From the IMG/VR virus record IMGVR_UViG_3300042522_000568, positions 1-58,754 of that record: a DNA stretch of 58,754 bases; one strand, written 5' to 3'. Source of the stretch: a virus. Each line of letters opens with the position of its first letter. Position 1 is the stretch's first letter. The position numbers and the translations under genes are program-made. This document shows, in pieces, positions 40,912 to 57,382 of the stretch. The notes beneath the pieces are model-generated. The model worked only from the letters and a program-made list of their open reading frames with translations, was not told where the DNA came from and did no database searches.

Positions 40912-41868
40912 ATGAGCTTCTTTTCTGAAGAAACAGAAACACAGTCATCAGCTCACACTCTTTGGGCTGAAAAGTATCGTCCAAGTAATGTGGAGGATTA
41001 TATTTGTGATAGTCATTTGAAAGACATTTTGAATGAGTTCATCAAACGAAAAGATATCCCACATTTATTGTTTCATGGCGGAGCTGGTACTGGTAAGACT
41101 ACTCTTGCTAAGATTTTGACCAAGAACATTCCATCCGACGTAATTTATATTAATGCTAGTGATACTAACGGCATTGAAATGGTACGTACCAGAATCAAAG
41201 GGTTCGCTGGGTCTACTGGATTTCAAGCATTAAAGATTGTTATTCTGGATGAAGCTGACTTTTTCACTACCGAAGCTCAAGCAGCTCTTCGTAATCTGAT
41301 GGAAACATATAGTCAGTCTACACGGTTCATTTTAACATGTAATTATGTAGAAAAGATTATTAAACCATTGATCAGTCGTTGTCAAGTCTTTGAGATTGAA
41401 CCACCTACAAAGAAAGATGTAGCTGTTTATGTACGTAACATTCTTGACAAAGAATCGGTTAAGTATGAACTATCAGATTTGAAGATTGTATTGGATAATT
41501 TTTATCCTGACATTCGTAAAGTAATTAATTATTTACAACAGAGTAGTACTAGTGGTAGTCTTAAACTGGTCAAGACGCAGAATGCGAGTGTTGACTTAAA
41601 ATCTAGTTTGATTTCTATTTTGAATGGTAGTAAAACAAATTCAAAAGCATTTAATGAGATCAGACAGTTGGTAGCAGATGCTGGAACAAAAACATTTGAT
41701 GAATTGTATAGCGAATTATATGATAAAGCTAGTGATTTTGCTCCTGGTAAAGAAGTGCAAGTAATTATTGAAGTAGCGGAATATGTATATCAGAGCAGCA
41801 TGGTTGTAGATAAAGAAATTACATTTATGGCTTGTATTGCTAAATTGATAAAAACAATCAATAAATGA
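40912..41868 (+). CDS. Clamp-loader ATPase subunit, T4 gp44-like
   Basis: 318 residues. AAA+ loader: LWAEKYRPSNVEDY at the start, Walker A GGAGTGKTTLAK, Walker B IVILDEADFF, sensor 1 FILTCNYVEKI and the arginine-finger block PLISRCQ (SRC motif). Domain II (IEPPTKKDVAVYVRNIL) and the C-terminal helical collar follow. Four copies with one gp62 (10712) should load the clamp. It lies six bases after the clamp gene, and its TGA stop overlaps the start of a glycosyltransferase gene. Confidence 0.93.
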   Translation: MSFFSEETETQSSAHTLWAEKYRPSNVEDYICDSHLKDILNEFIKRKDIPHLLFHGGAGTGKTTLAKILTKNIPSDVIYINASDTNGIEMVRTRIKGFAGSTGFQALKIVILDEADFFTTEAQAALRNLMETYSQSTRFILTCNYVEKIIKPLISRCQVFEIEPPTKKDVAVYVRNILDKESVKYELSDLKIVLDNFYPDIRKVINYLQQSSTSGSLKLVKTQNASVDLKSSLISILNGSKTNSKAFNEIRQLVADAGTKTFDELYSELYDKASDFAPGKEVQVIIEVAEYVYQSSMVVDKEITFMACIAKLIKTINK

Positions 41869-42965
41869 TAAAGAAAGTATCAAGTATAGTTAGTAGTAAA
41901 CCAGTTATTCATCCATCTGTCGTAATAAACGATATAGGCACAATTAAATATATTGGTCAAAGCGGCACTAGCGGTTATGCTAGTGCCGCTAAAGGCTATT
42001 TAGCAGACTATGTATTACGTAATATATCTGTTAATTGGACTCAATTATTATTTGATAATAGCAACAATGATAGAAATTATTATGTAGACGCTTTGGCAGA
42101 AAGTGTAATTGGAATATCGTATGATAGTTACGATACTGTAATCTTACATAGTACTCCAGACATTTGGAATGATTTATTGTTAACACATAATAATAAAGTT
42201 AAAAATGTAGTTGGATATTGTACGTGGGAAACAAATAAGCTACCATCAAAGTGGGTTAGTTATATTAATAACGTACCGGAAGTTTGGGTTCCATCCATCT
42301 TTAATAAAGAATGTTTTATGAATTCTGGTGTGAATTCTAATATAAAAGTAGTACCTCATATATGGCATCATCAGAATTTAATTAATAAAGACAGTATAAC
42401 CATATATGATCATGTAAGAAATGTAGTACCCAAAAACAAATATACATTTTATAGTATAGGCGAATTAAATTTTAGAAAAGGTATAGAAGATTTAGTAACC
42501 GTATTTGATAAATTTAATGATGATTATCCAGATACTCAGCTTTTAATTAAAGTTCATTACAGAGATTATCAACCCGTCAATAGACAGTATTGTATTAACA
42601 CTATTAATAAATTAACTAATAAGTTGGGTACATCTATTCATATTATACTAGATAATTTAAGTAATAGGGATATATTAGGATTACATAGTTTTGGAGATTG
42701 TTATGTTAGTTTGAACAAAGGTGAAGGATTTGGATTAACTATATTTGATGCTTTTAATTATGGCAAAAAAGTAATTACTACTGGATATGGTGGTCAAGTA
42801 GATTATCTTGGTTTAGATTATGATGGATTGGTAAAATATAAAATAGATAAAGTAAGTGGTATGGAATCGTTTAGTACTAATTATTCAGTAGATCAAGAAT
42901 GGGCATATCCGGATTTGGAGCATGTTTACGAATTAATGAAAAAATGTTATGATAATCAATTTTAA
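41865..42965 (+). CDS. Family 4 glycosyltransferase
   Basis: 366 residues. GT-B: the acceptor half has GQSGTSGYASAAKGYLADYV and VVGYCTWETNKLPSKW; the hinge reads VPSIFNKECFMNSGVNSNI; the donor half has FYSIGELNFRKGIEDL, LIKVHYRD and CYVSLNKGEGFGLTIFDAF with the E-x7-E pattern, then GKKVITTGYGGQ. It is translationally coupled (ATGA) to the clamp-loader gene, so a glycan gene is expressed together with replication genes. Confidence 0.88.
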   Translation: MIKKVSSIVSSKPVIHPSVVINDIGTIKYIGQSGTSGYASAAKGYLADYVLRNISVNWTQLLFDNSNNDRNYYVDALAESVIGISYDSYDTVILHSTPDIWNDLLLTHNNKVKNVVGYCTWETNKLPSKWVSYINNVPEVWVPSIFNKECFMNSGVNSNIKVVPHIWHHQNLINKDSITIYDHVRNVVPKNKYTFYSIGELNFRKGIEDLVTVFDKFNDDYPDTQLLIKVHYRDYQPVNRQYCINTINKLTNKLGTSIHIILDNLSNRDILGLHSFGDCYVSLNKGEGFGLTIFDAFNYGKKVITTGYGGQVDYLGLDYDGLVKYKIDKVSGMESFSTNYSVDQEWAYPDLEHVYELMKKCYDNQF

Positions 42966-43311
42966 CCAGTTAGACAAATTAAGAAAAAATGTTCAATTTT
43001 TGGAAGGTACATTTTCATTAGAAAAAGATCGTAATTTTTCTTGGATATGGACATCTAAAGTTGTAAATGGAATTGTTTCAAATATTAATGACATTACTAT
43101 TAAAGCATTTAGTGAAATTGATAATAATTTATTTTACGATAATAATAGTATAGAAATTAAATCCAATTGTCTCAATATTATTAAACTTAACACATCTGGA
43201 AAAGAAGAATTCAGCTTTCGACTAGAAAACGCATTTATTCCGGAGAATGATAATAGAGAACTTGGATTGAAAATCGTAGGCATTTTAGTGGATGGAGAAG
43301 TAATATTTTAA
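42949..43311 (+). CDS. Small beta-sandwich protein, possible carbohydrate-binding domain
   Basis: 120 residues. FLEGTFSLEKDRNFSWIWTS opens a pattern (Gly-Phe ... Trp-x-Trp-Thr), continues with short strands and closes in AFIPENDNRELGLKIVGILV. This resembles stand-alone beta domains that accompany glycosyltransferases (a Trp/Asp-Arg-Glu-Leu-Gly frame). It may hold the acceptor glycan for the neighbouring GT4, whose 3' end it overlaps by 17 bases. The family was recalled by eye. Confidence 0.55.
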   Translation: MIINFNQLDKLRKNVQFLEGTFSLEKDRNFSWIWTSKVVNGIVSNINDITIKAFSEIDNNLFYDNNSIEIKSNCLNIIKLNTSGKEEFSFRLENAFIPENDNRELGLKIVGILVDGEVIF

Positions 43312-43342
43312 TACGAAATGTATACAAGTCCCACAAGAAAAT

Positions 43343-44062
43343 ATGACACGTTTATATCCAAAATCGCTTAACATAGAAACTACATCAATTTGCAATTTAA
43401 AATGTGTAATGTGTACTCAGTCAGCTGAAGATTTTGGAAGAGCTAAAGTTCATTTGTCCGAGAACACTTTGGAACAATTAAAACCGTATATATTAAATGC
43501 GGAATTTATACAATTGCATGGAATTGGAGAACCAACTTTAAGTCCATCATTCTGGAAATGTTTAGAAGTATTAAACAATAATAGTTGGTCATCTACTAAT
43601 ACTAATTTGGTGAGTTTATCCGAAGAAAAAATGATAAAATTAGTTAATTCTTCGTTAAAACATTTGAGTGTTTCTATTGATTCCCCTAATGTCGAAACAT
43701 ACTCTAAAATAAGAGGCGCAAATCTTAATAATGTAATTGAAAATATTAAAAAATTAATGTCTTATAAAGAACAATATAAGTCGAATTTAACAATCACATT
43801 AAACATGACATTAATGAGAGAAAATATTTTGGAATTAAAAGATGCAATAGATTTATGTGTAGATCTTAATATAAACATATTAGATACTTGGCCATTGAAT
43901 AATTGGGAAGGTGAACAGTTTAATAGGCAAATTAGAAATTGGACTTTTAATTATGAAGATCAATTACCTTGGAAGTTTCAAGAACTATATAACGATGAAA
44001 TTGATAAAATATCAATTTATGCAAATGAAAAAAATATTAAATTTACTTATCATAAAATATGA
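43343..44062 (+). CDS. Radical SAM enzyme core
   Basis: 239 residues. The 4Fe-4S site CNLKCVMC (C17, C21, C24) in the first strand, then a GIGEPTLS segment (GxGEP, SAM binding), SVSIDSPNVETYSKIRG and NMTLMRENILEL. This is the partial TIM barrel of radical SAM enzymes. The C-terminal cluster-binding SPASM part is absent and is encoded by the next gene. Such enzymes act on peptides or sugars (for example dehydration or epimerisation); within a glycan block a sugar substrate is possible. The substrate is not readable. Confidence 0.85.
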   Translation: MTRLYPKSLNIETTSICNLKCVMCTQSAEDFGRAKVHLSENTLEQLKPYILNAEFIQLHGIGEPTLSPSFWKCLEVLNNNSWSSTNTNLVSLSEEKMIKLVNSSLKHLSVSIDSPNVETYSKIRGANLNNVIENIKKLMSYKEQYKSNLTITLNMTLMRENILELKDAIDLCVDLNINILDTWPLNNWEGEQFNRQIRNWTFNYEDQLPWKFQELYNDEIDKISIYANEKNIKFTYHKI

Positions 44063-44301
44063 AACTTGAAATAAAAGATTGTAAACATCCGTGGGAGAAT
44101 TTACAAGTATTAGCTACAGGTGAGGTAAGAGTTTGTTGTTGGAGTTCACAGCACTTAGGCAATCTTAATAAAGATACACTCAACGATATTTGGCTTGGAA
44201 AAACTCTTCAAGAATTAAGAGAATTTGTTAAATCTAACAAATTACACCGTATTTGTAATGGCGCTCCATGTCCATATGTTCAAGCATATATAAAGAATTA
44301 A
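44059..44301 (+). CDS. Stand-alone SPASM-like domain
   Basis: 80 residues with C8, C26, C27, C66 and C71 in the order of a SPASM auxiliary Fe-S domain: CKHPWENLQVLATGEVRVCC, then GNLNKDTLNDIWLG and ICNGAPCPY. In most proteins this domain is fused to the radical SAM barrel. Here it starts in an ATGA overlap with the radical SAM gene, so the two are co-translated and probably form one enzyme. Its stop overlaps the end of the convergent GT61 gene by 4 bases. Confidence 0.8.
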   Translation: MKLEIKDCKHPWENLQVLATGEVRVCCWSSQHLGNLNKDTLNDIWLGKTLQELREFVKSNKLHRICNGAPCPYVQAYIKN

Positions 44302-45443
44302 GAATTTATACAATCTTTTAATTTTTGTATATCATTGAATTTAAATGGTTGATCTGGTACACGTCTACAAACATCTGGATACATATCCACACCCAATAAT
44401 TCAACCCCACTTGTAATTAGATGTAATTTTGTTTGTTTGACTGTACATAACCACTCTAACATGGGTTTCCATTCAGCATAATGTGGACCGGTGATAATAA
44501 TATTTTTAGTACCTGGAGATTCAAAAATTATGTTAAATGTTGTAGATCCTCCTTGTTGTATAATACAGTCTGAATTATTTACTAATTTTATTTTTTCAAA
44601 AATATTAAGATCCATTAATTCTACATTTTCAAATCCTAAATGTTCTATTTCTTTATAAACTTCTTTTTCGTTCGTCATATATCTAAAGTGATACCATCCG
44701 TTTTTTTGAGTATCCAATCTAGATATAAAATTATTTTTTGCAAATGTTCTTTTTACTTTTTTGCTTTCTTCAACTAATAAGTTATATAATTCGAATTGAG
44801 TGTCGCTCCATAACCAAACATCCTGAGAAGTATATGGTACAGGCAAAATTAACGTATCAATGTGATAAACTTTTCCCATTGTTAAAGGCAAAAATTTATC
44901 AAATAAATTATTATGTTTCAAATAAAAGTCAGTGATATCTTCAGCAAAATCACTTCTAAAACTCAATTTTTTTATAAAACTTTTATCGTTTACATCATTT
45001 GCATAATTTATTATGGGTCTTATTTGGCCAAATTTAACATTTGAGTTGTTTTTGCACATTTGTGGATAATACCACATTTTTGGATATACATCTGTTAAAA
45101 AATGACTGTAATTCCATTCTAAATAATCATAACAAAAAAATAATTCATCTACGTGTTCATCTATTTTTAAATTTTTAGATTCTTCGGAATATTCACCATA
45201 TTCTATAGTAGGATTTTTTTCGTCATACCACAAAGCATTAGTATCAGGATGTCTATTAATGTATTTTTTAATTCTATAATTTTCACTGTATACTTTTATA
45301 TTATTATAAACATCGTCTAATGTAAGCTTAGAAAAATTTGTTAAATCAATAATACAATTCTTCAAAATAAAACATTTATTTTTGTTTTTATAAATGTCTG
45401 GTATTATTTTTAATTCAGGAAACTTATATTGATCGAAATTCAT
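44298..45443 (-). CDS. Family 61 glycosyltransferase (second copy)
   Basis: 381 residues. WNYSHFLTDVYPKMWYY, FISRLDTQKNGWYHFRY, then EIEHLGFENVELMDLNIFEK with LVNNSDCIIQQGGSTTFNII, and GTKNIIITGPHYAEW follow the GT61 order seen at 26322, but the two proteins are strongly diverged. It is a single minus-strand gene inserted between + operons; its start is separated from the divergent methyltransferase gene by 40 bases containing a perfect 16-bp palindrome. Confidence 0.82.
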   Translation of the reverse strand: MNFDQYKFPELKIIPDIYKNKNKCFILKNCIIDLTNFSKLTLDDVYNNIKVYSENYRIKKYINRHPDTNALWYDEKNPTIEYGEYSEESKNLKIDEHVDELFFCYDYLEWNYSHFLTDVYPKMWYYPQMCKNNSNVKFGQIRPIINYANDVNDKSFIKKLSFRSDFAEDITDFYLKHNNLFDKFLPLTMGKVYHIDTLILPVPYTSQDVWLWSDTQFELYNLLVEESKKVKRTFAKNNFISRLDTQKNGWYHFRYMTNEKEVYKEIEHLGFENVELMDLNIFEKIKLVNNSDCIIQQGGSTTFNIIFESPGTKNIIITGPHYAEWKPMLEWLCTVKQTKLHLITSGVELLGVDMYPDVCRRVPDQPFKFNDIQKLKDCINS

Positions 45444-45483: not shown

Positions 45484-46098
45484 ATGAATAATTCTTTTAA
45501 CGGGTGGTTACACATTGAGCAATTTAATTTAAATAAAGTTATTGATTTAGTCTTAACTAATGGAACATCAGAAACAATAAATTCAGATATGTGGTTAACG
45601 CCTATGATAGGGGATAAATCTGAATCGTTGTCTATTTTGGATTTCGGATGTGGTGTAGGCCGTAATATTTTTGACTTTTCACAAAATTTTCAAAATTGGA
45701 AATTTTATGGATACGATAATCCACATATGATGAATAAAGCTAACGAATATTCAAAAATAAGATTTAGCAAACAAATATGTGATTATCCAAACCTAGAACT
45801 TATATCTGATTGGGATATACTGAAAACAATAAAGTTTGATTGCATATATGCTACTATTGTTTTTCAACATATACACGAAAATGATCTTAATTTATATTTA
45901 CGAGATATCAAGAAAATGACCAGTAGATTGATCGTGTCTGGTCGAAGATTTAACGATGATATTGTCGATGGCAAACACAAAAACACATGGCAAATTTTAG
46001 AAAATAATGAGTTCTATCCTTTAAACGCTAAAGAAATAAACTATAATGTTGATGGTGATCCGAACGAACACATAACTTGCATATATGATTGTAAATAG
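45484..46098 (+). CDS. Class I SAM-dependent methyltransferase
   Basis: 204 residues. Motif I ILDFGCGVGRNIFDFSQ, motif II-like FYGYDNPHMMNKA, and FDCIYATIVFQHIHENDLNL as motif IV. It would methylate a small molecule or sugar. The start of the next gene lies inside its last codons (14-base overlap), so both are co-translated. Confidence 0.82.
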   Translation: MNNSFNGWLHIEQFNLNKVIDLVLTNGTSETINSDMWLTPMIGDKSESLSILDFGCGVGRNIFDFSQNFQNWKFYGYDNPHMMNKANEYSKIRFSKQICDYPNLELISDWDILKTIKFDCIYATIVFQHIHENDLNLYLRDIKKMTSRLIVSGRRFNDDIVDGKHKNTWQILENNEFYPLNAKEINYNVDGDPNEHITCIYDCK

Positions 46099-46858
46099 AA
46101 AAAACGTATTAATTGGCATTCCTGTTAAAAATTGTGACTCTTGGTTGGAAAACACAGTTAGACAAATTATTAACTTGGATTATGATAAAGAAGATTTGTC
46201 CATTGTTTTTGTAGAGAATGATAGCGAGGATAATTCATTTGCCGTAATAGAATATTGTATACGTGAATTGTTATCAAAATATAGATACAGATCTATAAAA
46301 TACGAGAAAAAAGATATCGGATTTAAATTGCCGCACGAATCCAGACATGACTTTAGACATATGGATAAAAGAATGAATAGTTTAAAAATTATACGTAATT
46401 ATATAGTTGATAATTATTTAGCGGATAATGGTTATATATGGTGGGTAGACGCGGATTATCAATATATCCCACCAAACTTTTTAAAAGAATCTGTAGAGTT
46501 TAATACCGATATCATCATGCCACGGGTTGAAGTCAATGATGTAAATTATGACGGAGTGACACATGCGATTATTGATGGAGTCGTAGTTCCAATAAATAAA
46601 GTGGCAAGTCGTTTTGATGATACGTTTTATAGAATGAATATAGTAGAATGTGCTGCTTTAATTTCAAGAAGAGTGTTTGATAGTGGATTGCAATATGACA
46701 GTGGAATTATCAAAGAAAACGATGGCACAGAACACTTTTTACAAGAAGGTCCACATTTTTCTTATAGAGCAAAATTATCTGGATTTAAATTATATGGTTC
46801 ATTAAAACATGTAATTATTCATCAACCAATAAATGGTACTATACCATATAATGACTAG
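46085..46858 (+). CDS. Anp1-like (GT62-type) glycosyltransferase
   Basis: 257 residues. VLIGIPVKNCDSWLENTVRQ, LSIVFVENDSEDNSF, the basic block ESRHDFRHMDKRMNSLKIIRN and the metal site IWWVDADYQYIPPNF, then IIMPRVEVND. The order matches the Anp1 family (alpha-mannosyltransferases best known from fungi), where the R-R-N helix precedes the DxD. Related proteins occur in viruses. It is probably a cytosolic GT adding mannose or a similar sugar. Family assignment is by remembered pattern. Confidence 0.65.
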   Translation: MIVNRKNVLIGIPVKNCDSWLENTVRQIINLDYDKEDLSIVFVENDSEDNSFAVIEYCIRELLSKYRYRSIKYEKKDIGFKLPHESRHDFRHMDKRMNSLKIIRNYIVDNYLADNGYIWWVDADYQYIPPNFLKESVEFNTDIIMPRVEVNDVNYDGVTHAIIDGVVVPINKVASRFDDTFYRMNIVECAALISRRVFDSGLQYDSGIIKENDGTEHFLQEGPHFSYRAKLSGFKLYGSLKHVIIHQPINGTIPYND

Positions 46859-46860
46859 TT

Positions 46861-47481
46861 ATGTATGTAAATTTTAAAGATATAGAAGTTAAAGTATTGA
46901 CTATACCAAGCAATACTCATAGACTTGATCAATTTAAGCGTGTTTTTGAAGATAAGTTAAACTTTGATGTATATTATGGCGTAACATTACCCAGACCATT
47001 GGGATGTGATATATCTTTAATAAAGTTATGGAACGTTATTAAACCACCAATTCTTGTGTTAGAGGACGATTGTTGTCCAACTGAGTGGTTTAAAACCGAA
47101 CTGAATGTTCCCGACGACGCTGATGTAGTTCATATTGGTACATCTGGCTGGGGGGTTAAAGATGGTAGATCCGAATGGAATAATTTATCTATTTCAAAAT
47201 ATAATGATGATTATTATAGATTAAGTGGCATGACAAGTACACATGGTATGTTGTTTTTAACACAACGATATTTGGAAAACTTAATATCTATAGGACAAAA
47301 ATATCCTGTTCTGTGTGAAGTTGGGGGAGTTGGAATTGATTATTTTACATGTCAACATCAACACGAATATAACGTATATGGCGTTGCTAAACCATTTGTT
47401 TATCAAAATGATCCATCTACTGATAGTATGACTAAACATCCTCTTGAAGATATTTATAAAAAATTAAAAGAAAATATATGA
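46861..47481 (+). CDS. GT25-like glycosyltransferase
   Basis: 206 residues. VKVLTIPSNTHRLDQFKRVF, FDVYYGVTLPRP and the acidic site PILVLEDDCCP fit the GT25 order (a short Rossmann strand, substrate loop, then LEDD). Later VVHIGTSGWGVKDGRSEW and YRLSGMTSTHGMLFLTQRYL contain the His/Ser acceptor-side blocks. It starts two bases after the Anp1-like gene and overlaps the GT10 gene by 4 bases. Confidence 0.65.
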   Translation: MYVNFKDIEVKVLTIPSNTHRLDQFKRVFEDKLNFDVYYGVTLPRPLGCDISLIKLWNVIKPPILVLEDDCCPTEWFKTELNVPDDADVVHIGTSGWGVKDGRSEWNNLSISKYNDDYYRLSGMTSTHGMLFLTQRYLENLISIGQKYPVLCEVGGVGIDYFTCQHQHEYNVYGVAKPFVYQNDPSTDSMTKHPLEDIYKKLKENI

Positions 47482-48284
47482 ACGTAGTTTGTCCGAACTT
47501 AAGTCATATACCAGAATCATATTGGAATGATAAGTTGAAAAGTAAAAATATTGATATAATTGTAAAATACGGATACCCAACTAATGTAGAAGAAGATGTT
47601 GTTGTTACAGATGCGGATATGTTAAATACAAATCAAGATTATAAGAACATCTATGGGTGGATAATTGAGTCTTCTGATATCTTAGAACATTTTACACCTG
47701 GGTATTTTGAAAAAGTAAAGAATAACTTACACGTGTTTAAAAAAATATACACTCACGATATAGATTTGTTAAATTACTCTGATAAATTTGTTTTTTATCC
47801 ACACGGCGATTGTTGGATTAAAGATCCTAAGTTTAATAAAACCAAACTAATCTCAATGATATCATCTGGTAAAGATTGGATATCTGGTCATAGATTTAGA
47901 TTAGAAATTGTAAAAAATATTTCTACTAAAATTGATTTTTTTGGCAGAGATACAAATCCTATTGATAGAAAAGAAGATGCTCTTAACGAATATATGTTTT
48001 CTATTGCAATGGAGAACTGTAAAAAAGATTATTATTTTACCGAAAAATTAATTGATTGTTTTAGAACAAAAACAATCCCAATTTACTGGGGATGTCCATC
48101 TATAGGCAATTTTTTTGATGTAAACGGAATACTTACATTTAATACGGTTGAAGAGTTAAAATCAATTCTACTAAACTTAACAAATGAATATTACTATTCA
48201 AAAATTAAATCAATCGAATTTAATTATAAAAAATCATTTGAATATGATTCACCTTTTAGTAATTGTCAGATATTTTTTGAATAA
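47478..48284 (+). CDS. Family 10 glycosyltransferase (alpha-1,3/4-fucosyltransferase type)
   Basis: 268 residues. The donor-binding core of GT10 is unmistakable: YMFSIAMENCKKDYYFTEKL, then FRTKTIPIYWGCPSIGNFF. GT10 enzymes bind GDP-fucose (in some viruses other GDP- or UDP-sugars) and transfer to O-3 or O-4. The N-terminal half is reduced compared with bacterial members. GDP-mannose 4,6-dehydratase at 56267 makes the precursor of GDP-fucose, giving a pathway link. Overlaps the end of the convergent methyltransferase gene by 19 bases. Confidence 0.88.
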   Translation: MNVVCPNLSHIPESYWNDKLKSKNIDIIVKYGYPTNVEEDVVVTDADMLNTNQDYKNIYGWIIESSDILEHFTPGYFEKVKNNLHVFKKIYTHDIDLLNYSDKFVFYPHGDCWIKDPKFNKTKLISMISSGKDWISGHRFRLEIVKNISTKIDFFGRDTNPIDRKEDALNEYMFSIAMENCKKDYYFTEKLIDCFRTKTIPIYWGCPSIGNFFDVNGILTFNTVEELKSILLNLTNEYYYSKIKSIEFNYKKSFEYDSPFSNCQIFFE

Positions 48285-48997
48285 ATAAATTTATTATAAT
48301 TTTGATAATTTGTTTGTGGTCGTTCGTCTTCTATAATATATTCTTCTAAATTTAGTCCTTCAAATGACGTTGAGTTCCACGTGTAAAATTTTTTACTACA
48401 CTTGTTTGTAAGTTTATTTAAATATTCAAGTCTATTATTCATTTCAATTTCTGAAATACAATAGTTTGAAATTACAAGATCATAATTTTCATTTATTTTA
48501 TCAATATCAAAACATGATATTATATCAATATCTAGATCTGTTTTATTAAAATAATATTTTTGTAATTGTGTGACATTAGGTAAATCTATTATAGAATAAT
48601 TTAATTTATGATTTTTCATTATATTCTTTAAATAAAAACATAATCCTCCGTATCCCCCTCCAATTTCAATTATTTTTATATCATTTTTATTATACCAATT
48701 TTCAATTTTCGATTTAATTAATAAAGCATGATAAATATATCTTAAATTTGACGGAGATATATGAAATCCTTCTATATCATAGATACTCGGATTTCCTATG
48801 CTGTCATTTATTTCGATTAAATCAGTGTAATTTTCGACATTAGAATTAAACTCATTTTCGATTAGTTTTTTATATTGCAATCCAAACTCATGAGATACAT
48901 GTTCTAACATGTAGGTAAAATCACAATGTCTTTTGAAATTGATATCTATATTTGACAAAAAATTATTATAAACCAAATATGTATTATCTATTTTCAT
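48266..48997 (-). CDS. Putative sugar O-methyltransferase
   Basis: 243 residues. Motif I IKIIEIGGGYGGLCFYLKNI, followed by SIIDLPNVTQLQKYYF and YDLVISNYCISEIE. The order and the N-terminal all-helical region match the class of bacterial putative sugar O-methyltransferases from polysaccharide loci. It would cap a residue of the glycan. It lies one base downstream of the GT11 gene. Confidence 0.82.
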   Translation of the reverse strand: MKIDNTYLVYNNFLSNIDINFKRHCDFTYMLEHVSHEFGLQYKKLIENEFNSNVENYTDLIEINDSIGNPSIYDIEGFHISPSNLRYIYHALLIKSKIENWYNKNDIKIIEIGGGYGGLCFYLKNIMKNHKLNYSIIDLPNVTQLQKYYFNKTDLDIDIISCFDIDKINENYDLVISNYCISEIEMNNRLEYLNKLTNKCSKKFYTWNSTSFEGLNLEEYIIEDERPQTNYQNYNKFIYSKNI

Positions 48998-48998
48998 T

Positions 48999-49757
48999 TT
49001 AAATTTGTATCCAACTTTTTGGAATTATATTTTTAGAATCTATATCAGATTGATCGGAGAACCATTTTTTTGGTCCTACTACAGTTTTATTGTTGTTTTT
49101 ATTTAACCAAGCGCTCCACCAACTAAATGTACTATTAGCAATTATGTTGTGGTCACATAAACTCATCAATATCAAATCAATCATTTCATCATTAAATATA
49201 GAATAATACGAGTTTGGATAATTTTGTTTAACAAATTCTATGTCATCTGATATGAATAAAAATGAACAATTCTTATAAATGTCCATAGCTTGTTTGTAGT
49301 AATCGTGTGTAAGAATATTGTATATATGATTGTGGGATAAATAATCACCTCTTCTTATATGAACCGATACAATCGGTCTTGGAATTGTTTTTATAAATTC
49401 CTCTATTTCATTTTTCCTGTATGAAAGATTATACAAATTTATAACTTCTTCTCTTTTATTTTTAAAATATAATTCTGATTGAAAATAACCATCTAATAGA
49501 AGATTCTCCGAGTAGGGAATTGTATCATAAGAATGTTTTAATTCAGTATAATTGTTTTTGCAAATAAAATCTCTTGTTGTTTTAACATTTTTAAATATAG
49601 TATCTTTATATTTTGTTGATTTACACCCCTGCATGGGAGTATAACATTTATCAAAATCAAATACAGCAATATCATTATTTTCCAATGCGTGTACATAAGT
49701 CGTTGATATTTGAAATAATTGATTACCAATTCCACCTTTTAAATTACAACTTATCAT
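48999..49757 (-). CDS. Family 11 glycosyltransferase (alpha-1,2-fucosyltransferase type)
   Basis: 252 residues from ATG 49757 (ATGA overlap with the gene upstream; a TTG further up is weaker). GT11 signatures: GGIGNQLFQ at the start, VSVHIRRGDYL (H133-D138) and CDHNIIANSTFSWWSAWLN. The family transfers fucose from GDP-fucose to O-2 of galactose or similar sugars. Full length for the family is about 270-290. Together with the GT10 gene this makes two fucosyltransferase types within 3 kb. Confidence 0.9.
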   Translation of the reverse strand: MISCNLKGGIGNQLFQISTTYVHALENNDIAVFDFDKCYTPMQGCKSTKYKDTIFKNVKTTRDFICKNNYTELKHSYDTIPYSENLLLDGYFQSELYFKNKREEVINLYNLSYRKNEIEEFIKTIPRPIVSVHIRRGDYLSHNHIYNILTHDYYKQAMDIYKNCSFLFISDDIEFVKQNYPNSYYSIFNDEMIDLILMSLCDHNIIANSTFSWWSAWLNKNNNKTVVGPKKWFSDQSDIDSKNIIPKSWIQI

Positions 49758-50347
49758 AACAGCTCGTAAATCCAACAACCTTCATTTGTATGTTTTGTGT
49801 TTTTTAATAGTTCATTAACTGCTTTTTTAACACCTGGCCAAGAATCCGAATCTGCCCAATAGTCATGTCCAGATAATATTCCATTTTTTTTAACTTTTGG
49901 TAACCAATGAATTATATCATTTTTTACGTCTTCATATTCATGAGAAGCGTCAATAAAAATAAAATCTATCGAATCGTCATCAAAAAGTTTTGAAGCTTCT
50001 ACAGATGGTAGACGGAGATCGGTATAATAGTTTTCAAACGGAGACATATTGTTTTTAAATATATTATATAGATCTGATACTTCATCGTATGATTGATGTT
50101 CAACGCTACCATTCCAAGTATCCACACATATAAATTTTATGTCTTTTTTAGAATTTATAATTTCGACCACCATATATGCAGCTGATTGACCTTTCCAGCT
50201 TCCTATTTCAATAAATGTACTATTTTTAGGAAATCTTTTAACCATTTCTGAATACAACTTTGGATATGTAAAAAAAGAATTGTTAAATTGTGGTTCGGTG
50301 TATATGTGATTCATTTTTGTATATATATGGTTATACTTCATATCCAT
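49754..50347 (-). CDS. Class I SAM-dependent methyltransferase
   Basis: 197 residues from the outermost ATG 50347; starts at 50341 and 50314 are possible, the last after a YNHIYTKMNHIYTEP duplication. Motif I FIEIGSWKGQSAAYM, then KFICVDTWNGSVEHQ, and IDFIFIDASHEYEDVKNDI as the metal/motif IV block; GILSGHDYWADSDSWPGVKK follows. This is the DHE/HDY pattern of small cytosolic methyltransferases in glycan loci. Confidence 0.82.
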   Translation of the reverse strand: MDMKYNHIYTKMNHIYTEPQFNNSFFTYPKLYSEMVKRFPKNSTFIEIGSWKGQSAAYMVVEIINSKKDIKFICVDTWNGSVEHQSYDEVSDLYNIFKNNMSPFENYYTDLRLPSVEASKLFDDDSIDFIFIDASHEYEDVKNDIIHWLPKVKKNGILSGHDYWADSDSWPGVKKAVNELLKNTKHTNEGCWIYELL

Positions 50348-50990
50348 GACATCCGAATGTCTTTAAGTTTTGATTTTCTGGAAGTATTTTCTCTTTAGAA
50401 AATTTCAAAGCAACTTCAAATGGCGCAAACACGTTTCCGTGTTTTTCATATAATTTATGATTATGTACACATATTGTGTTGTCTTCGTTAACAGAATAGT
50501 GATTTAAGTGTTTGTAATAACATCCAAACATTGTTGATGCAAATGGTATGTGTTCAATATTGGGGGTATTTAATAATCTTTTACTTCGTAAACTAAATCC
50601 TCCATTTCCAACTCTTATGTGTTTATTGTCTGGGTCTATATAACAACTATCTGTATATGGCCAAGGCGCGCCTATATAATCATATTTCAAAAATTCATCA
50701 GTCCACAAATGTGGATTTATTACAAATCCATCGTGTTGAACAACCAAACAAAATTCAGTATCTACATGTTTATATAAATCGTATATCATGTAGTGACTAT
50801 ATGCCTCTATGGATGTTAAATGTCTACACTTTTCAATTTTTATGTGTGGATCAACCTGTATTTTTTCGTGGGTAATTAATTTAATTTCATTAAAATTTAT
50901 ATTTTTCGAACAATGTAGAATTGAATTTATAGACTCATTTAACTTTACTGAAGTAACGCATATAAGAGTAACATCTTTTAAATTAATCAT
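50331..50990 (-). CDS. DUF5672-like glycosyltransferase-type protein
   Basis: 219 residues from ATG 50990 (TAA-T-ATG after the gene upstream). VTLICVTSVKLNESI, then FCLVVQHDGFVINPHLW, YDYIGAPWPYTD and VGNGGFSLRSKRLL with a late FAPFEVALKFSKE and FGCHGYE. I recognise this string of motifs as the DUF5672 family found in polysaccharide loci; it has a GT-A-like acidic site (QHDG) and is presumed to be a glycosyltransferase. Confidence 0.82.
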   Translation of the reverse strand: MINLKDVTLICVTSVKLNESINSILHCSKNINFNEIKLITHEKIQVDPHIKIEKCRHLTSIEAYSHYMIYDLYKHVDTEFCLVVQHDGFVINPHLWTDEFLKYDYIGAPWPYTDSCYIDPDNKHIRVGNGGFSLRSKRLLNTPNIEHIPFASTMFGCYYKHLNHYSVNEDNTICVHNHKLYEKHGNVFAPFEVALKFSKEKILPENQNLKTFGCHGYEV

Positions 50991-50991
50991 A

Positions 50992-51654
50992 TTAGAAAAG
51001 TGGGGTTTTAGCACAGTCGTTATATAGATGTGTGCTTCTTCCTGGGATACAACTTGCTATTTTTCTATTTTTAGCTCTCAACAACAAAAATGATTCATAA
51101 TCCCAACACGAAGTTGGATTTAGTTTAAATCTTTCAATCCACACATTATAATCCGATTTCAATGTATCATATTTACATGCAAATGTACCTGTTGTAGAAT
51201 TTGTAAATTTCCAATGAGAATTTTTAGTTAAAAAAACTATAGTTCTTTCGCCAATATCCGTAACCTCTGGGTTTGTCCAACCGCTGTATGAATACTTATC
51301 TGGATGGTCATATAAAGTAACGTAATCTGAATGTTGTAATCCTTCTTCAATCAGTTTATCAGATCCGATTTTATGTAAATAATCATCTTCTACTAAATAT
51401 AAACTATCATTCGTGGTAAAATTATTTAAACAAAAATCTAATTTATTAATAAAATATGTAGATCTGCCTCTAACTTTATTTTCTATAAAGTTTATGTTCT
51501 TTGATTTAACGAAATTTACAAACTCATTGTTTAGATTATCACCCAACACATAAATTTGATCATCTTTGAAAATTTCACATAAATTATTGAAAGATGTTTT
51601 TTTACAGATTTTACTGTTTGTGTTTTCACATATGGACAATATTATTCTTAACAT
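50992..51654 (-). CDS. GT-A-like glycosyltransferase
   Basis: 220 residues. RIILSICENTNSK, IYVLGDNLNNEFVNF, then the acidic site SLYLVEDDYLHK and the acceptor-side blocks YVTLYDHPDKYSYSGW, TTGTFACKYDTLKSDYNVW and TSCWDYESFLLLRA. The VEDD motif serves as a DxD equivalent. It is the first gene of a five-gene minus unit and starts 28 bases from the divergent virion-like gene. Confidence 0.7.
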   Translation of the reverse strand: MLRIILSICENTNSKICKKTSFNNLCEIFKDDQIYVLGDNLNNEFVNFVKSKNINFIENKVRGRSTYFINKLDFCLNNFTTNDSLYLVEDDYLHKIGSDKLIEEGLQHSDYVTLYDHPDKYSYSGWTNPEVTDIGERTIVFLTKNSHWKFTNSTTGTFACKYDTLKSDYNVWIERFKLNPTSCWDYESFLLLRAKNRKIASCIPGRSTHLYNDCAKTPLF

Positions 51655-55871: not shown

Positions 55872-56270
55872 TTATATTCTTTTTCTTTTTTTGTAATCTT
55901 CTAACGCTGCATTAAGTGCCTCGGTAGCCAAAACACTACAATGAATTTTTACCGGTGGGAGGCCACCCAACGCAGTAACAATATCATCATTATTAAAATT
56001 TTTCTGAAGTTCTTCTATAGTACGCCCTTTTATTAGTTCTGTAGCCATACTGGAAGCAGCTATCGCACTACCACACCCAAATGTCTTAAATCTTGCATCA
56101 GTTACTGTTTGTGTAGCATCATCAATTTTAAGAGTAATCTTCATAATATCACCACACGCTGCGGCGCCTACTTCACCAATAGCATCTGCATCTTTTATAT
56201 CGCCCATATTTCTTGGGTTCATAAAATGATCCATTACCGTTTCATTATATAATGTATAAGAGTCACTCAT
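55872..56270 (-). CDS. iscU: IscU/NifU-type Fe-S cluster assembly scaffold
   Basis: 132 residues, full length for IscU. It has YNETVMDHFMNPRNMG, the three cluster Cys in AACGD (C39), FGCGSAIA (C66) and HCSVLA (C111), with D41 and H110 also in place. The chaperone-binding motif LPPVK stands at 104-108. IscU assembles 2Fe-2S and 4Fe-4S clusters with a cysteine desulfurase. This phage encodes likely Fe-S enzymes (the radical SAM/SPASM pair and the Cas4-like nuclease), which could be the clients. The desulfurase must come from the host or from outside the window. Overlaps the GDP-mannose dehydratase gene as ATGA. Confidence 0.93.
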   Translation of the reverse strand: MSDSYTLYNETVMDHFMNPRNMGDIKDADAIGEVGAAACGDIMKITLKIDDATQTVTDARFKTFGCGSAIAASSMATELIKGRTIEELQKNFNNDDIVTALGGLPPVKIHCSVLATEALNAALEDYKKRKRI

Positions 56271-57382
56271 AGTCCGATTTGTTTTAAGTCATTTTTAACC
56301 ATCTTATCAACCAGTTGTTCAAATGAAATTTCTGGTTTCCATCCTAATTCTTTTCTGGCTTTGGTGCTATCACCTAGTAATAAGTCTACTTCAGCAGGTC
56401 TATAAAACTTAGGATTGATTTTAACCAAGACAGAAACTACTGGATCATATTTAATTGCATTTTGTGTAGTGATACTAAATTCAGCAGATTCAGCTTGTCC
56501 ATGCCATGCACCTTCGATCTCAGCCCCTTTAAATGCGTACCATACAAATTCAGCAATTGTATGTGTTTCATTGCTAGATAATACATATTCATTTGGTGTT
56601 TCTTGGTTTAACATCTTCCAGATACCGTCAACGAAATCTTCAGCGTCACTCCAATCTCTTCTGGCTTTTACATTGCCCAGTTCAATTGGTTCAAATGATT
56701 TTCTCTCAAGAATTGCTTTTTTGATTCTAGCTACTCCCTTGGTAATTTTTCGAGTGACAAATTCTTCACCTCTTCTAGTTCCTTCATGATTGAATAACAA
56801 CCCTTGTACAGCATACAAGTTATAACTTTCTCTGTATACTTTAACCAATTGTCTAGCTGCAGATTTACTAGCACCATATGGACTACGAGGTCTTGCAGGA
56901 TGATTTTCATCTTGTGGAATGTATGCGACATCACCGTATTCTTCACTGCTACCCGCATTATAAAATCTACAAGATGGTTTATGTTGACGAATTGCTTCAA
57001 GAATGTGAATTACACTAGTAGTATTACATTCCCATGTTTGAGCAGGAAAATCCCATGATGAACCAACAAATGTTTGTGCAGCTAAATTAATAAAGTAATC
57101 TGGTTTTAACTTTTCTACTATCTTGCTAATACTATGTGCATCACTCAGATCAAAGTTAACTAATTTAAATCTGGGGTTGTTTTCTAAGTGTCTAATGTTT
57201 TCATGATTTTTAATACTCAGTCTTCTAGCACCTCCTACTATAAAACAGTCTGTTTTATCAAGTAGATAATCTACCATAAAACTTCCATCTTGTCCAGTTA
57301 CCCCCGTAACAAATACAACTTTTTTGTTTTCCATAAAAGGAACAACATCATTAATATTATATATATCCATAAAAAATTTCAT
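56267..57382 (-). CDS. gmd: GDP-mannose 4,6-dehydratase
   Basis: 371 residues (an internal ATG at 57334, MENKKVVF, would give 355 and is closer to the usual start). Short-chain dehydrogenase motifs: TGVTGQDGS (NADP binding), the catalytic Ser/Thr-Glu in SSEEYG, YGASKSA (Tyr and Lys), FNHEGTRRGEEFVTRK and the WKPEISFEQLV end typical of GMD. It converts GDP-mannose to GDP-4-keto-6-deoxymannose, the precursor of GDP-fucose, GDP-rhamnose or GDP-perosamine. The GT10 and GT11 genes point to fucose. The next enzyme (GDP-fucose synthase) is not in this window. Confidence 0.93.
   Translation of the reverse strand: MKFFMDIYNINDVVPFMENKKVVFVTGVTGQDGSFMVDYLLDKTDCFIVGGARRLSIKNHENIRHLENNPRFKLVNFDLSDAHSISKIVEKLKPDYFINLAAQTFVGSSWDFPAQTWECNTTSVIHILEAIRQHKPSCRFYNAGSSEEYGDVAYIPQDENHPARPRSPYGASKSAARQLVKVYRESYNLYAVQGLLFNHEGTRRGEEFVTRKITKGVARIKKAILERKSFEPIELGNVKARRDWSDAEDFVDGIWKMLNQETPNEYVLSSNETHTIAEFVWYAFKGAEIEGAWHGQAESAEFSITTQNAIKYDPVVSVLVKINPKFYRPAEVDLLLGDSTKARKELGWKPEISFEQLVDKMVKNDLKQIGL

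Follow-up and report, generated by a model that had tools for sequence, protein, structure and literature searches.

A putative two-chain radical SAM enzyme with a separately encoded Twitch domain in a virus rich in glycan genes

The virus record analysed here (58,754 bases, called the window below) encodes a family B DNA polymerase, a clamp-loader-like ATPase and many glycosyltransferase-like genes. It also carries a gene for a radical SAM barrel that is followed at once by a gene for a small cysteine-containing protein, which raises the question of whether a radical SAM enzyme is built here from two separate chains and, if so, on what kind of substrate it would act. The two open reading frames proposed in the first-pass annotation, together with their short overlap, were confirmed in the sequence:

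43343..44062, plus strand: radical SAM barrel subunit, 239 aa, with the motif CNLKCVMC (PF04055, E 5.2e-14)
44059..44301, plus strand: stand-alone Twitch (auxiliary Fe-S cluster) subunit as read here, 80 aa (PF13186, SPASM, E 6.4e-12)
44059..44062, plus strand: ATGA overlap holding the stop codon of the barrel gene and the start codon of the Twitch gene, read from the sequence

The Twitch gene lies in the -1 frame relative to the barrel gene. Overlaps of 4 bases are ordinary in the window (a simple rule gave 75 ORFs, and 17 of the 65 adjacent pairs on one strand overlap in this way), and translational coupling of the two genes through the ATGA is likely. The parts themselves are already in databases, RefSeq naming the stand-alone half 'SPASM domain-containing protein'. 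In the open-licence literature, covered by titles and the starts of abstracts, no description was found of a radical SAM enzyme with its SPASM or Twitch domain on another chain. Judged by comparison with related loci, the pair is a Twitch radical SAM enzyme whose division into two genes is genuine and conserved. One passage of PMC9012708 says that direct evidence on the role of the Twitch/SPASM auxiliary clusters 'has long remained elusive'. A naturally split enzyme would allow the cluster-bearing subunit to be removed, exchanged, mutated or titrated while the barrel chain stays as it is, which would permit separate tests of electron acceptance, of substrate binding and of folding.

The two proteins and their closest relatives

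The pair belongs to a family of 10 loci, in 7 of which the two parts are split (the window, the viral contigs L063 and L003, and the bacterial loci L098, L102, L178 and L179), while in 3 they are fused: L100 from a deltaproteobacterial MAG, L101 from Reyranella and L103 from Brevundimonas. The window barrel scored 53.2 bits with PF04055 against a cut-off of 29.5, which places it in the radical SAM superfamily, and the CxxxCxxC motif is present in 9 of the 10 family members, these being all whose sequence reaches that far. As the first-pass annotation had noted, an auxiliary-cluster domain is missing from the barrel ORF. Its best NCBIfam models describe putative metalloenzyme or tungsten-cofactor maturases, with scores far below their cut-offs (92.3 of 400 and 91.4 of 380 bits). 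Nine Brachyspira hyodysenteriae plasmids were also seen to encode a radical SAM protein whose identity to the window barrel is about 29-30% over residues 5-177.

The small protein had been described at first pass as having five cysteines in SPASM order. The five cysteines are there (residues 8, 26, 27, 66 and 71, conserved in all 10 family members), as is the Pfam SPASM match, but the name needs correcting. The seven-Cys SPASM motif is CX9-15GX4C-gap-CX2CX5CX3C-gap-C, as given in a section of PMC6231123; the small protein has its first part only, as C8-x12-G21-x4-C26, followed by C66-x4-C71. Full SPASM identity was ruled out on this account, and the protein is read as a Twitch domain, with one cluster. 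All 10 family members keep C-x17-C-C and C-x4-C, the last pair being C-x2-C in 15 of 16 other loci and C-x4-C in one (L108).

The layout predicted for the 80-aa protein (model pLDDT 83, pTM 0.69) is that of a Twitch domain, in which cysteines flank a hairpin and two more follow the second helix: Cys8, strands at 16-24, Cys26-27, helices at 41-45 and 48-58, Cys66 and Cys71. This order agrees with the description of BtrN and SkfB in section 7 of PMC6231123. When a Twitch profile made from 8 family rows was compared with the PDB, BtrN sequences were the sole matches at E up to 1 (6.6e-5 and 1.2e-4); with 9 outgroup rows added, BtrN reached 1.3e-11 and anSME came second at 2e-4. BtrN also led the weak Foldseek matches of the window Twitch model (E 0.05, probability 1.00, TM 0.65), and the structural alignment with it gave a Z of just 3.5 (rmsd 2.9, 68 residues). 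On sequence and model the small protein is thus a Twitch domain, which would carry one auxiliary Fe-S cluster on Cys 8, 26 or 27, 66 and 71. Stand-alone Twitch proteins of Azospirillum (L185 8915-9592, L186 10598-11275) have an additional C-terminal domain of about 140 residues, which in L185 is DUF7024-like below the cut-off (21.2 bits against 24.4).

How the two parts might fit together was judged from the model of the fused relative L101 (pLDDT 88.5, pTM 0.84). The sole stretch of that model below 50 is residues 265-286, between the domains, which is the position of the gene boundary in the split members. A break of the chain at a disordered linker should leave the domains able to pack, so an enzyme of two subunits is the simplest reading of the split loci, and we infer by this comparison that barrel and Twitch protein assemble into a complex.

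Compared with solved structures without its C-terminal helix, the L101 model matched DesII (Z 22.0, rmsd 5.5, 324 residues), SuiB (Z 21.8, rmsd 4.0, 295 residues), SkfB (Z 21.5, rmsd 3.4, 286 residues), anSME (Z 20.1, rmsd 4.0, 289 residues), BlsE (Z 20.0, rmsd 3.8, 280 residues) and BtrN (Z 16.6, rmsd 3.5, 221 residues). DesII, a radical SAM enzyme acting on a nucleotide-linked amino sugar, has the highest Z but is tied with SuiB and SkfB, two of the three being peptide-acting; it is one chain and 16% identical, and a common fold is no proof of a common function. SkfB and SuiB share domain order and fold with L101, and the linker between barrel and Twitch in SkfB is described as mostly disordered in section 7 of PMC6231123, as it is in the L101 model. 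Both differ in being one chain with a peptide-binding N-terminal domain (stated for SkfB in a section of PMC6231123), for which the window barrel is too short, and SuiB differs further in having two auxiliary clusters.

Among solved enzymes BtrN, the dehydrogenase of butirosin biosynthesis (PDB 4M7S, 4M7T), is the best relative of the Twitch part. It likewise consists of a barrel and a Twitch domain with one auxiliary cluster, and its C-x17-C pair and the G-N and W positions that follow align with the family Twitch. It differs in being one chain, a state found in 3 family loci against two genes in the window and 6 others, in being only about 20% identical by fold, and in its last Cys pair, where C-x2-C aligns with C-x4-C here. 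The best NCBIfam model of the small protein is NF033640, for twitch domain-containing radical SAM proteins (E 8.8e-9, 34.9 bits), and the same model is third best for the barrel (E 2.6e-14, 53.1 bits); both scores fall far short of its 170-bit cut-off, and it describes a single chain with the Twitch domain first, whereas here the barrel comes first and there are two chains. A radical SAM task divided over two proteins is described for the lipoyl synthase LipS1/LipS2 in a part of PMC9585515; there, each protein has a radical SAM and an auxiliary cluster, in contrast to one kind per chain here.

Neighbouring genes and the proposed reaction

The pair stands beside glycosyltransferase genes, as had been annotated, and an IscU gene attributed to the phage at first pass was likewise found. 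The relevant genes are:

41865..42965, plus strand: glycosyltransferase group 1 (PF00534, E 1.6e-10), with a 48% identical homologue at the same place in L063
42949..43311, plus strand: 120-aa protein encoded between glycosyltransferase and barrel, found in L001 and L002 as well
44298..45443, minus strand: GT61 glycosyltransferase (PF04577, E 6.9e-15), 30% identical to an L063 gene
45484..46098, plus strand: class I methyltransferase (PF08242, E 7.5e-10), 40% identical in L063 and 33% over 134 residues in L003
55872..56270, minus strand: IscU-like Fe-S scaffold (NifU_N, E 7.5e-50)

The order glycosyltransferase group 1, barrel, Twitch, GT61, methyltransferase is common to the window and L063, save for the 120-aa gene, a gene of this type being absent between glycosyltransferase and barrel in L063, and for the GT61 gene, which is on the strand of the pair in L063 and turned round in the window. 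The methyltransferase is the one neighbour that each of the three viral loci keeps next to the pair. In A. brasilense a methyltransferase also follows the pair; it showed no match to the viral 45484-46098 gene and is of a different kind, its homologue in genome G397 belonging to PF13578. Elsewhere in the family, L100 has a methyltransferase and a glycosyltransferase nearby, L101 a methyltransferase, L103 nucleotide-sugar enzymes and a GT61 gene within about 8 kb, and L098 two methyltransferases within 8 kb; near the pair of L102, on its short contig, no glycan or methyltransferase gene was found.

The 120-aa protein, which has no Pfam match at E 0.01, was considered as a third component and rejected: an 18-residue end is all that it shares with the C-terminal domain of the Azospirillum Twitch proteins, a similarity (for the L002 homologue, BLAST E 0.026 and 0.05; hhalign probability 6%) that is too weak, and BLAST of the window protein itself against that domain gave no match.

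As to cluster supply, the IscU-like protein is a possible source for the pair. IscU is present in 2 of 5 virus records searched, namely the window and the contig of L001, a closely related virus. In L003 an IscA-like gene (PF01521, E 1.8e-19) lies two genes upstream of the barrel and Twitch genes. On the minus strand of the window at 55872-57382 the genes for the IscU-like protein and for a GDP-mannose 4,6-dehydratase have 4 bases in common, an Fe-S scaffold gene being paired here with a deoxysugar gene. A further observation concerns the four genes after the pair, which between window 45484-48284 and 13570-16501 of L188 on the L001 contig are just 84-91% identical, while the flanks at 41865-45443 and 48266-51654 are 99-100% identical; by this comparison, part of the glycan cassette appears to have been locally replaced between the two.

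We lean slightly towards the view that the pair is one radical SAM enzyme of two polypeptides that oxidises a sugar of a glycan built by the neighbouring glycosyltransferases. The barrel would bind SAM and a [4Fe-4S] cluster and generate the 5'-deoxyadenosyl radical, and the start codon inside its stop would couple translation of both genes. The Twitch subunit, with its one auxiliary cluster, would dock at the site which that domain occupies in one-chain relatives. That cluster would take the second electron, as proposed for BtrN, whose auxiliary cluster, held by four Cys, is thought to do so in aminocyclitol oxidation according to a passage in PMC9012708. A C-OH group of the substrate would be oxidised to a ketone, the likely substrate being a sugar of the glycan in question, which the adjacent methyltransferase would perhaps methylate later. 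BtrN-like chemistry on a sugar is proposed because of the BtrN match and the glycan neighbours. The window also has genes of GT10 and GT11, two families with fucosyltransferases among their members; together with the GDP-mannose 4,6-dehydratase gene these make a GDP-linked deoxysugar a fair first guess. If this is true, radical chemistry enters phage glycan building; in pelagimyophages, radical SAM gene cassettes are described within a glycosyltransferase-rich region in a part of PMC7029224.

A sugar substrate for the pair, aided by the BtrN match, is possible. The family barrel profile matched SkfB (6.2e-8) and BtrN (1.1e-7) best among solved structures, the two being close together. The window barrel alone matched PqqE first (2.7e-4), then SkfB (0.0022), and also a lipid synthase, and it did not match BtrN at E 0.01. 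The peptide-acting PqqE and SkfB thus precede any sugar enzyme, which counts against a sugar, and since the window is rich in glycan genes, glycan neighbours are likely by chance. A two-subunit enzyme acting instead on a peptide or protein, of the virion or the host, is an unlikely alternative that still deserves weight, as in fold comparisons SkfB, SuiB and anSME equal or outrank the sugar enzymes and as PqqE and SkfB come first for the window barrel alone. Against it stand the Twitch part, nearest to BtrN by sequence, and the glycan genes next to the pair; a gene for a precursor peptide was not noticed either, though the search for one was not systematic.

Separate genes in related loci

The same two genes occur in L001, where barrel, small protein and 120-aa gene are 100% identical to those of the window. 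L002 is 88% identical in the barrel (dN/dS 0.083 over 125 codons); its contig ends inside the barrel, and it was left out of the count of split and fused loci. More diverged pairs are present in the viral contigs L063 (51% identity in the barrel, 54% in the small protein, 2-base gap) and L003 (39% and 45%), in which the most likely start of the small gene is 13 bases past the barrel stop. Between window and L063, with synonymous sites near saturation, the barrel had a dN/dS of 0.43 and the small protein one of 0.33. In L063 (1-1891 and 2398-3186) the clamp-loader gene also looks interrupted by an intein-like stretch, which as judged by eye ends in FFIGKSKILTSNC ahead of clamp-loader residues, and endonuclease-like ORFs are near.

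Two bacterial split pairs, each with genes that overlap by 8 bases, came from a scan of species genomes in which 78 loci were kept: L098 in Azospirillum sp. TSH64, of which L099 has a second copy, and L102 in a Burkholderiales MAG. Sampling of 82 genomes of the family of L098 gave two more, L178 (genome G397, 5-base gap) and L179 (genome G403, 4-base gap). On the complete plasmid p5 of A. brasilense MTCC4039 the pair is at the same place as in G403, and in RefSeq a 'radical SAM protein' there adjoins a 'SPASM domain-containing protein', followed by a class I methyltransferase and with glycosyltransferases on both sides. The accessions of this A. brasilense pair are WP_137143739.1 and WP_137143740.1. 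Contig C4 of G397 (183,672 bases) has the pair near both ends, as L178 and as L180, in which the barrel is broken by a stop; the duplicate is probably a redundant, error-prone contig end, and L180 was left out of the count.

The small protein might instead be no fixed subunit at all but an unattached Fe-S protein, either handing electrons to the barrel or shared by several radical SAM proteins. Its separate chain would suit this, as would the C-terminal extension of some relatives such as L185, yet each of the 7 split loci has it directly after its own barrel, the 3 fused ones have both on one chain, and in the window no SPASM match besides the 80-aa protein was found; we therefore regard this as improbable. 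Programmed frameshifting that yields an additional fused product is much harder still to credit: the second gene does lie in the -1 frame a few bases from the stop in the window and L063, but no X XXY YYZ heptamer was seen by eye before the stop in either, and the junctions differ widely among loci, four bacterial ones having GGAG or GGAGG of their own within the end of the barrel gene, before the second start. That a sequencing or assembly frameshift merely broke one gene, as the metagenomic origin of the contig might suggest, was rejected as next to impossible and is excluded in practice, since the two genes recur in L001 and in seven family loci including two diverged viral contigs and four bacterial genomes, one of them complete, the one doubtful split, L172, being different in having an N base in the overlap of its two ORFs. 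Separate genes are thus conserved across divergent loci and no indel is needed to explain them, the fused forms (3 of 10) being without the flanks of the window, so that the refutation offered at first pass, fused relatives with the same flanks and reads supporting an indel, did not materialise.

In a tree of 26 loci built on both domains the 10 family loci grouped together with support of 100/99, split and fused members being intermixed. The best tree has three changes between the split and fused states; well-supported branches force three of them when both domains are used and two when the barrel is used by itself, and a constraint uniting the split rows gave p 0.015 (both domains) and 0.046 (barrel alone). 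As several rows, L103 among them, are on long branches, the exact number is uncertain, and the tree is silent on the frequency of splits elsewhere because its 16 other rows were picked from fused loci. Within this small, rare family the state has, as far as the tree can tell, changed more than once. The fuller claim, of a virus-encoded two-subunit radical SAM sugar oxidase whose natural Twitch split arose more than once and by which the phage would obtain an unusual keto- or deoxy-sugar on a glycan, is put forward as a tentative one, somewhat short of probable.

The barrel and auxiliary domain normally share one chain, as had been supposed: in 39 Azospirillaceae genomes, 3 of 69 SPASM matches lie in open frames of under 300 residues, two being the L098 copies and one a partial match in a 156-residue frame. 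At E 1e-40 the family occurred in 1 of 385, 3 of 82, 1 of 399, 1 of 76, 1 of 15 and 1 of 200 genomes around known members, each count including the member used to draw its group and several groups overlapping. Among 50,697 phage records no relatives were found at E 1e-3 (barrel) or 1e-2 (small protein).

A survey of 175 loci, in which overlapping places were counted repeatedly, gave 158 ORFs with a Twitch/SPASM match at E 1e-3, placed C-terminal to the barrel in 83, N-terminal in 31 and without a barrel match in 44. Ten of these 44 rows are split pairs of the family (the window, its near-twin contig, L063, L003, L102 and both L098/L099 copies) and one is L172. The other 33 are in ORFs of at least 314 residues that likely hold a sub-threshold barrel; as these were judged as a group, not singly, an absence of other splits is not claimed. 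The order of the domains also differed by source, the Twitch/SPASM domain standing before the barrel in 26 viral two-domain ORFs and after it in 3 (overlapping loci recounted), against 5 and 80 in bacterial ones, and most of the viral enzymes seem to have the permuted order known from NF033640.
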